21,580 nucleotides of DNA from a virus. Below the pieces are notes generated by a model, which did not search any database, was not told the DNA's origin, and saw only the letters and a list, made by a program, of their open reading frames with translations. The stretch is taken from positions 1 to 21,580 of the IMG/VR virus record IMGVR_UViG_3300044730_001485. The stretch is one strand, 5' to 3'. The position numbers and the translations under genes are program-made. Below are positions 11,320 through 16,996 of this stretch, piece by piece (position 1 is the stretch's first letter; each line of letters opens with the position of its first letter).

Positions 11320-12371
11320 TCAGCCTCCATAACTTCTGTTTCTTGAGTTTCTTCACCGCCACCATAACTGTAAAAACGCTTTGCTGCCTTTTCAAGTTCA
11401 GCCATAACCTCTGGCGTGAAGAATTTTTCAGGCTCATCATTGATCGCCTTACCAAACACCTTGTCGCCATTTGGCAGTTCGTAACGAGTGCTAACCTTCT
11501 TAAACACACCAGCCTTTTCAGCCAAGTCAAGCAAGCCATAATATTTGTCAAGACCAGACTTGTATGACAACTTGACAACAGCCTCGCCGTTTTCTTTTGA
11601 CATGCGTGACTTATACATCTTGATCTTAATCAAGTTACCAACAACCTCAGTACCATCACGGTCTTTGCTCTTTGATAACATAGCAATCGTTGATGCAGCG
11701 TATTTCAAACCAGTGCCGCCTGAGATTTCATTTGTTGGGACATAAGCACCAACAGCGGCATACACATGGTTGGTCAAGAGCATTGGGATTTTAGCACGAG
11801 CCAATTTCAAAGTCAAGACGCGGAATGCAGCCTTGATGACCTGCGCCTTGGTCATGTCACGAGTTTCTTTACCCTCTGAACTGTCTTCCATTTCTTTTGT
11901 AGTTGACAGCATGCCAAGTGAATCAAGCACAAACATCATTGGGGGACGTTTATCCTCTGGTCGGGCAATGTAAGCATCAATCAATTTAAGAGCATGATGA
12001 CGAAACTTTTGAATTGTATCAGGCTCGGCATAAATGACACGGGTGACATCAACGCCACGTGATGCCATCATTTCACGAGTGACAGCCGCCTCAGTGTCAT
12101 AGTAAACAACGCCAGCATTTGGGTTGTTATCAAGAAACGACTTGACAATTCCAAGAACGAAAAATGTTTTGCCAGTTGAAGACTCACCAGCAAAGGCAGT
12201 GATCTTATTGTTTGGAACACCGCCATACAAACTACCACTCAATACAGCATTCAAAATGTACGAACCTGTATCAATAGAACCAGAAAATTCACCAGCACCC
12301 TCGCCATCAGCGGCAATGCTTGTGTCTTCATCTTTAATTTGTTCGACTAAATCGCGAAAAAAATTACTCAT
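11316..12371 (-). CDS. uvsX: RecA-like recombination protein UvsX
   Basis: 351 residues from ATG at 12371, chosen because AAGGAG lies 7 nt upstream (an in-frame ATG six nt earlier is too close to it). Walker A AGESSTGKT (61-69), catalytic-glutamate region YYDTEAAV (~90-97), Walker B MMFVLDSLG (145-153) and an L2-like region TNEISGGTGLKYA. UvsX forms the strand-exchange filament and starts recombination-dependent replication in T4-like phages. The C-terminus is acidic (EETQETEVMEAE), as often seen in RecA-type proteins. It has its own early promoter and is coupled to the helicase by ATGA. Confidence 0.95.
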   Translation of the reverse strand: MSNFFRDLVEQIKDEDTSIAADGEGAGEFSGSIDTGSYILNAVLSGSLYGGVPNNKITAFAGESSTGKTFFVLGIVKSFLDNNPNAGVVYYDTEAAVTREMMASRGVDVTRVIYAEPDTIQKFRHHALKLIDAYIARPEDKRPPMMFVLDSLGMLSTTKEMEDSSEGKETRDMTKAQVIKAAFRVLTLKLARAKIPMLLTNHVYAAVGAYVPTNEISGGTGLKYAASTIAMLSKSKDRDGTEVVGNLIKIKMYKSRMSKENGEAVVKLSYKSGLDKYYGLLDLAEKAGVFKKVSTRYELPNGDKVFGKAINDEPEKFFTPEVMAELEKAAKRFYSYGGGEETQETEVMEAE

Positions 12372-15292: not shown

Positions 15293-16459
15293 ATGAGTTT
15301 AGCGAATTTACAAAAGAAAATGGGCATCAACGCTGACGGCTCATTTGGACCAGGAACACTCAAAGCAGCCATGGCTTACTACAAATTGTCAGCAACTCGT
15401 GCTGCACACTTTTTTGCCCAAACGGCTCATGAGTCTGGTAACTTCAAAGCATTCAGTGAAAATTTGAATTACTCCTCTGATGGACTTGTTAAAATTTTCG
15501 GCAAGTATTTTAATGCAGGAAACGCTCCCAATTACGCAAGAAACCCAGAAAAGATTGCTAACCGTGTATATGCAAACCGCATGGGTAATGGCGACGAAAA
15601 AAGTGGCGATGGTTGGAAGTATCGCGGACGTGGCGCACTCCAACTGACGGGTAAAGACAACTACAAGGCATTTTCAAAGTACCTTGGCAAACCAGAAATT
15701 ATGGACAACCCAGACTTGGTTGCTACAACATATGCTTTTGAGTCAGCAATGTTCTTTTTTGAAAAGAACAACCTCTGGGCGATTTGCGATAAAGGTGTCA
15801 GTGACTCATCCATTTTAGCATTAACTAAAAAAATCAATGGCGGCACTCATGGTCTTGCTGATAGAAAAGAAAAGAGTATCAAATATTTGAACTGGGCTGT
15901 ATCAAACGCCCCAATTCCAAAAGCAGCACCAGCACCTGCTCCAACGCCAGCACCAGTGTCAACTGCTCCAAAAGTAAAATTGTCACCTGACACTGTATTG
16001 TCTGAGCATTTTAAACTTGGCGAGTTCATCAAATCAGAAACCGCAATACGTAAAGGTATAGACAACAGTCCAAGCGAGGATCACCTTGAAAATCTTAAAC
16101 TTGTATGTCAAAAAATTCTTGAACCAGTTAGGAGACATTACGGTAAACCAGTTCGTATTAATAGTGGCTACCGTGGTCCTGCTCTTAATGCTGCTGTTGG
16201 CGGATCCTCCAAATCACAGCACTGCAATGGAGAGGCAGTCGACTTTGAAATTGACGGACTTGCCAATCCTGAACTAGCCAAGTGGGTTGCCGCCAACTGC
16301 GAATTCGATCAAATCATCCTTGAGTTCTATGATCCAAAAGAAGGACCAAACTCAGGCTGGGTTCACGCAAGTTATTCTAAAAAGAGTAACCGCAAACAAA
16401 CTATGACCGCATCCTCAGCTGGCGGCAAAACTGTTTACACGCCAGGATTCAAAGTTTGA
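15293..16459 (+). CDS. Two-domain endolysin: GH19 (chitinase-like lysozyme) plus M15 peptidase
   Basis: 388 residues. Residues ~1-200 are a GH19 glycoside hydrolase: FFAQTAHESGNF with catalytic E47, E56 in the next loop, YRGRGALQLTGKDNY (110-124) and KKINGGTHG (178-186). A Pro/Ala linker spans 206-225. Residues ~232-365 are a zinc D-Ala-D-Ala-type peptidase (M15): INSGYRGPALNAAVGG, H309 and D316 in QHCNGEAVDFE, H357 in WVHAS. Together they would cut the glycan and peptide bonds of peptidoglycan. No signal peptide, so release needs a holin not identified here. SD is weak (AGAAG). Its 3' end overlaps hsp20 by 25 nt, tail to tail. Confidence 0.93.
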   Translation: MSLANLQKKMGINADGSFGPGTLKAAMAYYKLSATRAAHFFAQTAHESGNFKAFSENLNYSSDGLVKIFGKYFNAGNAPNYARNPEKIANRVYANRMGNGDEKSGDGWKYRGRGALQLTGKDNYKAFSKYLGKPEIMDNPDLVATTYAFESAMFFFEKNNLWAICDKGVSDSSILALTKKINGGTHGLADRKEKSIKYLNWAVSNAPIPKAAPAPAPTPAPVSTAPKVKLSPDTVLSEHFKLGEFIKSETAIRKGIDNSPSEDHLENLKLVCQKILEPVRRHYGKPVRINSGYRGPALNAAVGGSSKSQHCNGEAVDFEIDGLANPELAKWVAANCEFDQIILEFYDPKEGPNSGWVHASYSKKSNRKQTMTASSAGGKTVYTPGFKV

Positions 16460-16929
16460 GTTTCCTCAAGCAACAGTGATGGTTTGCTTTTGACTTCGAT
16501 TTTCTTTGGCTTTTTGTGATCTGGGATCACATCAATCAAAGTGATCGTGAGCATACCGTTAACCAGCACAGCAGATTCAACTTGAATTGTATCTGCTAGA
16601 GTAAACTGACGAGTAAATGCCCTGTCAGAAATGCCACGGTAAACATAATGAATGTCGTTAGCAACATCGTCATTGCTGTTGGTTTCATGATTGCCCTTCA
16701 CGGTTAGTTTGCTATCGGCTACTGTGACTTCAATGTCATCTTCAGTGAACCCAGCGACTGCCAGTTCAAGAATATATTTGTCCTCATTGAGGACTCTTTT
16801 AACATTGAATGGTGGATAGTTGGCTTTGCCGAGCGATGCGGCTTCATTAAATTGTTTGATGATTCTATCAGCGCCAACAAAGTAGCGTTCAAAAAGATCA
16901 TTACCAAATACGTCTTTTACGTAGGTCAT
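16435..16929 (-). CDS. hsp20: Small heat-shock protein, Hsp20/alpha-crystallin family
   Basis: 164 residues. The N-terminal arm (GNDLFERYFVGADRIIKQF) precedes an alpha-crystallin domain from ~40 to 140: YPPFNVKRVLNEDKYILELAVAGF, DDIEVTVADSKLTVKG, FTRQFTLADTIQVESAVLVNGMLTITL. The IEV near 144-146 fits the IxI/V tail motif. It is an ATP-independent holdase. Hsp20 genes recur in marine T4-like phages. A late promoter and a structured leader precede it; AAGGAG is 7 nt before the ATG. Confidence 0.93.
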   Translation of the reverse strand: MTYVKDVFGNDLFERYFVGADRIIKQFNEAASLGKANYPPFNVKRVLNEDKYILELAVAGFTEDDIEVTVADSKLTVKGNHETNSNDDVANDIHYVYRGISDRAFTRQFTLADTIQVESAVLVNGMLTITLIDVIPDHKKPKKIEVKSKPSLLLEETQTLNPGV

Positions 16930-16936
16930 ATCGTTT

Positions 16937-16985
16937 CTCCTTAAATAAGCGAGTTGTTGTTATGCACCCCATTTCGGCGATGCAT
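16937..16985 (-). promoter_or_regulatory. Structured hsp20 leader, candidate ROSE-like RNA thermometer
   Basis: The leader has two stem-loops on the minus strand. SL1 (16985-16962): AUGCAUC pairs with GGUGCAU (one G-U) around a GAAA-containing loop. SL2 (16953-16937): CUCGCUU-AUUU-AAGGAG, in which the whole SD AAGGAG is paired with CUC-CUU and one G is bulged. The anti-SD contains UCGCU, matching the U(U/C)GCU core of ROSE thermometers, where that G sits opposite the SD. The ATG is 7 nt after SL2. Confidence 0.5.
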
Positions 16986-16988
16986 TTT

Positions 16989-16996
16989 TATTTATA
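16989..16996 (-). promoter_or_regulatory. T4-type late promoter for hsp20
   Basis: Minus strand TATAAATAA, an exact octamer, directly after the stop of the 64-aa gene. Initiation ~6 nt downstream would start the RNA at the foot of SL1. Confidence 0.75.

Follow-up and report, generated by a model that had tools for sequence, protein, structure and literature searches.

A candidate two-hairpin ROSE-like RNA thermometer in the leader of a phage hsp20 gene

The window analyzed here, a viral stretch of 21,580 nucleotides (IMG/VR record IMGVR_UViG_3300044730_001485), encodes a family B DNA polymerase together with RecA-like and DnaB-like helicase genes, which is the replication set of a T4-like phage. 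The same contig carries hsp20 (Pfam HSP20, E 8e-20; PHROG 432, Hsp20 heat shock protein, E 6e-37), and an earlier note had proposed that the leader of this gene is a ROSE-like RNA thermometer. The features of the locus are as follows.

16435..16929, minus strand: coding sequence of hsp20 (164 aa), the gene that the leader would regulate
16929-16927, minus strand: ATG of hsp20, read from the sequence
16985-16930, minus strand: leader of hsp20, with two hairpins, SL1 and SL2
16962..16985, minus strand: SL1, the 5' hairpin AUGCAUC-G-CC-GAAAU-GG-GGUGCAU (shuffles, covariation, alignment to the first hairpin of ROSE_3)
16978, minus strand: bulged G of SL1, read from the sequence
16937..16953, minus strand: SL2, the putative thermosensor hairpin CUC-G-CUU-AUUU-AAGGAG (sequence, fold, alignment to ROSE_3 and ROSE_2, conservation, stability compensation)
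16953-16947, minus strand: anti-Shine-Dalgarno (anti-SD) strand of SL2, CUC-G-CUU (CUC 16953-16951, bulged G 16950, CUU 16949-16947)
16946-16943, minus strand: loop of SL2, AUUU
16942-16937, minus strand: SD AAGGAG, wholly paired in SL2
16989..16996, minus strand: perfect T4-type late promoter TATAAATA (exact sequence match), 3 nt ahead of the first pair of SL1

The pairing described in the earlier note, in which the SD AAGGAG is bound by CUC-G-CUU across an AUUU loop with one bulged G, is exact in the letters. The UCGCU core that it had recognized in the anti-SD occupies 16952-16948, with G16950 bulged opposite AGGA. A fourU thermometer, in which a run of four U pairs with the SD, was ruled out, the anti-SD being CUCGCUU. 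The bulged-G theme of SL2 is repeated in SL1 (YGCC/GGG, window 16985-16962), and a GCUC..GAG version replaces YGCC/GGG in SL1 of some phages (loci with the theme or its variant: L074, L077, and L108).

From T4 promoter geometry we take the window hsp20 message to start near G16983, which would be the first G-C pair of SL1; this agrees with the earlier suggestion of a second stem-loop beginning almost at the predicted +1. Among 94 leaders with SL1, TATAAATA was found just 5' of the hairpin exactly in 28% and with at most one mismatch in 41%, compared with a shuffle background of 0.4% and 7%, respectively, and in leaders having both elements the gap between them was mostly 3–5 nt. Because TATAAATA is enriched 3–5 nt before SL1, SL1 probably forms the 5' end of a late message in many of these phages, the window phage among them; for the latter, late expression of hsp20 is predicted from the promoter motif. 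Leaders without TATAAATA may use other promoters.

The leader was compared with the ROSE families of Rfam. At gathering scores, Rfam reported nothing in the window and, in 20 related loci, nothing except tRNAs and one marginal microRNA match; standard annotation thus overlooks the element. With relaxed thresholds, RF02523 (ROSE_3) aligned to the leader over the whole model at 26.4 bits (E 5e-4, 121 nt searched), below the gathering score of 43 bits, which is a curator's cut-off and not a biological feature. The Rfam check suggested in the earlier note therefore bore out the kinship along the full length of the model but not at the curated score, and the element is here termed ROSE-like rather than a curated ROSE_3 member. 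Both of its parts are present in the ROSE_3 consensus, the first hairpin as GAUGCCGAA..GGGUC and the second as ACUCGCUGA...CAGGAG, whereas ROSE_2 aligned to the 17-nt core alone of the window leader, with no full-length match. Searches of whole records with ROSE_3 placed the hsp20 leader first in 5 of 16 related phage records (17–29 bits). A bacterial leader preceding an ibpA-like gene (L428) also falls under the RF02523 cut-off, at 40.7 bits.

A covariance model built from phage leaders, leaving out the window and its nearest relative, scored the window at 43.7 bits (E 8e-10) and bacterial Pseudomonas-type ibpA leaders at 22.7–35.4 bits. When 299 genomes from a single bacterial phylum were searched with a phage-built model, three matched leaders were also above the RF02523 cut-off, and all three precede Hsp20 genes of the Pseudomonas ibpA type, as judged by sequence. 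The phage model also matched a bacterial Hsp20 leader (L420; G277, C51:64459-64537, minus strand) with E 7e-4, which RF02523, applied to these genomes with an equal E-value limit, did not list.

Experiments with probing, toeprints, and reporters have established that Pseudomonas ibpA leaders of two-hairpin design are thermometers, in which hairpin II but not hairpin I melts, a stabilized bulge region represses, and expression rises 4–6 fold with heat (PMC3669281). The phage element shares with these leaders, which RF02523 matches, two hairpins in a leader of about 54–62 nt, a UYGCU core with a G opposite the SD, a free AUG, a small heat-shock gene on the 3' side, and a stable first hairpin with AUGCC..GGGU. 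It differs in belonging to lytic phages, in being preceded by a late promoter of the phage where the bacterial leaders have a sigma-32 promoter, in its shorter and weaker SL2, A/U-rich linkers and scores under the Rfam gathering score, and in also preceding phage dnaK. With the classical ROSE elements of rhizobia and enterobacteria it shares the UYGCU core facing the SD in the last hairpin, but those have three to four hairpins (PMC3669281) and the phage leader has two, with no full-length ROSE_2 match. The Synechocystis hsp17 thermometer likewise precedes a small heat-shock gene and masks the SD, in a host group related to that of the cyanophage members, but is a single short hairpin (PMC4166951), in contrast to the two hairpins and ROSE core found here. 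The phage lambda cIII thermometer provides a temperature-responsive ribosome site on a phage RNA, as the hsp20 leader would, but works through two alternative folds, with heat reducing its output (PMC4166951), whereas the hsp20 leader has one fold that should open with heat.

To examine the prevalence of the element, we gathered phage contigs by the Hsp20 protein alone and searched the 148 loci analyzed with an expression requiring UYGCY, then an SD, then a start. The motif was found in 138 loci, directly before hsp20 in 104 and before an upstream gene in 34, the latter being a small gene in 33 cases and a different gene in L253. Among the ten negative loci, three were cut by a contig end, five had near variants recognized by eye, and two (L067 and L068) lacked the UYGCU core. 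The element thus precedes hsp20 or an upstream gene, nearly always the small one, in about 142 of 145 evaluable contigs. It was also found in 21 of 22 isolated or named phage genomes, namely HTVC008M and HTVC115P (Pelagibacter), Atu_ph07 (Agrobacterium), Callisto (Pseudomonas), Syn30, ACG-2014f, S-SKS1, S-T4, S-CAM3, MED4-213, S-N03, ACG-2014e, P-TIM40, Syn1, P-HM2, S-RIM44, Sf-FR1, ACG-2014d, S-RIM2, S-SSM5, and S-TIM4; the sole exception among the 22 was S-TIM61 (OP053361, L202), whose hsp20 leader lacks it. Conservation of the anti-SD in related phage hsp20 leaders, the absence of which the earlier note had named as refuting its reading, is borne out by these two counts, and it holds across phages of unrelated hosts.

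Scanning all viral contigs with AACTCGCTTAANNAAGGAGA returned at least 120 stretches. Among the 120 matches listed, hsp20 was the next gene in 95, a 70–80 aa gene followed by hsp20 in 12, and dnaK in 4; the remaining nine comprised five before a similar small gene and four at a contig end. For a second form, AACCTTGCTTNNNNAGGAGGT, hsp20 was the next gene in 58 of 64 viral-contig matches. In 85,000 bacterial and archaeal genomes, AACTCGCTTAANNAAGGAGA gave 13 matches against an estimated chance expectation of about 7, and the four that precede hsp20 were all in metagenome-assembled bins. Scans of whole genomes yielded exactly one match, the hsp20 leader, in 11 of 12 isolate genomes.

The element was observed before the 70–80 aa gene lying just ahead of hsp20 at L018:2733, L038, L114, L136, and about 30 other loci, and the two genes may form one heat-gated operon. 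A "phasin-like" label for the small gene was dropped, as it had no Pfam support. Some phage dnaK genes carry the element (pattern matches at L096, L137, L141, and L162; also L327–L330 and L333), several phage dnaK leaders have an extra hairpin between SL1 and SL2, and other phage dnaK leaders are without the element.

Covariation in SL1 was strong, with a whole-structure score of 0.52 compared with 0.16 for shuffles and at most 0.13 for slid partners, and 0.51 on a model-based alignment; the rows had been selected for having SL1, so the independent test is provided by dinucleotide shuffles, in which a hairpin of the SL1 type (bulged G ahead of CC/GG, outer stem of 4 pairs or more) occurred in 1.9%, compared with 84% of the leaders. 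The SD strand of SL2 is not free to vary, unlike the outer pair, and a fourth outer pair was present in 33 of 34 leaders in which the bulge-adjacent pair is U-G, compared with 22 of 79 in which it is C-G (Fisher p 1e-12, a nominal value, as the leaders are related). This inner wobble offset by an added outer pair is what became of the SL2 covariance check proposed earlier, and it looks like stability tuning, which a thermometer should show but which is difficult to account for in a DNA operator. MAFFT misaligned the SD on raw leaders (A2) and was followed by N-padding by structure (A3) and model realignment (A5 and A6). As pair counts on structure-padded alignments are biased toward the structure, the weight of the argument lies with the shuffles and with the outer pair, on which no selection was made. 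Model R1, the first built, performed poorly, N columns having been turned into positions, and its additional window match, at plus-strand position 12104, was not reported by model R2.

Minimum free energy folds of the window leader (RNAfold) contained both hairpins and a free AUG with 5' ends at -58, -56, -55, and -54, while starting the RNA at -53 kept SL2 but let another fold displace SL1. SL2 alone had a free energy of -5.2 kcal/mol at 20°C and -2.8 kcal/mol at 37°C. Folding at several temperatures, as the earlier note had advised, left the SD masked and opening with heat, but gradually and not as a sharp switch, the fraction of unpaired GGAG rising from 1% at 10°C through 3% (25°C) and 9% (37°C) to 27% at 50°C. 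In the model, loss of the bulged G lowered GGAG exposure at 37°C to 0.4%, and disruption of CUC opened GGAG. Phage SL2s were weaker than bacterial ones in the same calculation (median -3.2 compared with -4.9 to -5.8), which may suit cooler water. Averaged over all leaders, modeled SD exposure was below that of control genes and nearly flat across temperature, and it was therefore not used as evidence of heat sensing. Nearest-neighbor energies ignore the non-canonical ROSE core and are a poor guide to ROSE melting, and we thus infer the heat response by homology with the bacterial thermometers.

The helix in SL2 is short, and a weak partner is available to any SD, as would be expected of chance pairing or of a generic leader that many late genes have in common. 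Against this, the strict form of the motif was found before none of 616 other long ORFs on related contigs (the loose form before 9), and this result, the contrast of SL1 with its shuffles, and the 43.7 bits from a model without the window together exclude chance and show the hairpin to be real. A generic late-gene leader was ruled out by the same control ORFs, the single match per isolate genome, and the gene specificity of the motif scans; with covariation pointing the same way, we give either version a negligible probability. More deserving of consideration, though improbable, is a static attenuator in which SL2 lowers hsp20 translation at all temperatures, balancing a strong late promoter without any role for heat. 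The model does mask the SD at every biological temperature, but an attenuator requires no UYGCU core, conserved bulged G, or exclusive link to heat-shock genes, whereas the element is tied specifically to hsp20, to dnaK, and to the small gene that mostly precedes hsp20, and it matches proven thermometers.

The conserved stretch might instead be bound by a protein, as a DNA operator or an RNA target. A putative Pho box, ATTCAAACTCGCTTAAATA, has been tabulated at -31 of S-PM2d hsp20 (S-PM2d130) (PMC10976474), and regA, which encodes a phage translation repressor, is the immediate upstream neighbor of hsp20 in several cyanophages, which would fit a RegA target. However, ATTCAAACTCGCTTAAATA contains the anti-SD itself, for which a ROSE anti-SD offers a simpler reading, and conservation tracks RNA pairing, spans phages of unrelated hosts, and fits ROSE models, making a protein site very unlikely.

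We conclude, with a probability of roughly 0.85, that the hsp20 leader is a two-hairpin ROSE-like RNA thermometer, a phage branch of a known kind. That it belongs structurally to the short two-hairpin ROSE-like kind is highly probable, and it probably works as a heat-opened switch in the window phage. The thermometer proposed in the earlier note thus gains support from anti-SD conservation, compensation in SL2, alignment to ROSE_3, and modeled masking of the SD, and is extended by the bulged-G motif of SL1 and the generality of the element among phages. In the mechanism that we envisage, SL1, as a stable 5'-terminal hairpin, would probably protect the message and aid its folding. In the cold, SL2 would hide the SD through its UCGCU anti-SD, with the bulged G keeping the helix marginally stable; on warming, SL2 would melt and free the SD, allowing ribosomes to start at the free AUG. 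As the late phage promoter would supply the thermometer-bearing message, the stage of infection would set the first gate on the chaperone and temperature the second.

Our search of the open-access literature found no earlier report of a ROSE element in phages. While this kind of RNA is known, its presence in phages, near-universality, and gene specificity appear to be unreported in the open literature searched. On balance, and with moderate confidence, we favor the view that a ROSE thermometer is an old and nearly universal component of the hsp20 module in T4-like phages and some giant phages, which infect cyanobacteria, SAR11, Agrobacterium, and Pseudomonas and have the element also before some dnaK genes, and that it serves a heat response run by the phage. 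If so, a late promoter combined with an RNA thermometer would shield virus production in heat-stressed cells, and phages would mount a heat response without host sigma factors. In marine T4-like cyanophages, hsp20 belongs to the core genes. Capsid scaffolding (PMC3037559) and host survival at raised temperature (PMC7674155) have been offered as its roles. A conserved leader gated by heat would mean that Hsp20 is produced mostly under heat and favors a stress role, suggesting that the phage may make its Hsp20 chaperone mainly when the infected cell is hot. If the heat response holds, phage Hsp20 would be a heat-gated chaperone, which counts against constitutive capsid scaffolding.

The position of the element also implies that some annotated hsp20 starts are probably wrong, those of S-T4 and S-CAM3 giving proteins that are too short and that of P-HM2 one that is too long (loci checked: NC_048049 108386-108442, KU686197 158626-158681, and NC_015284, L433:365-419).
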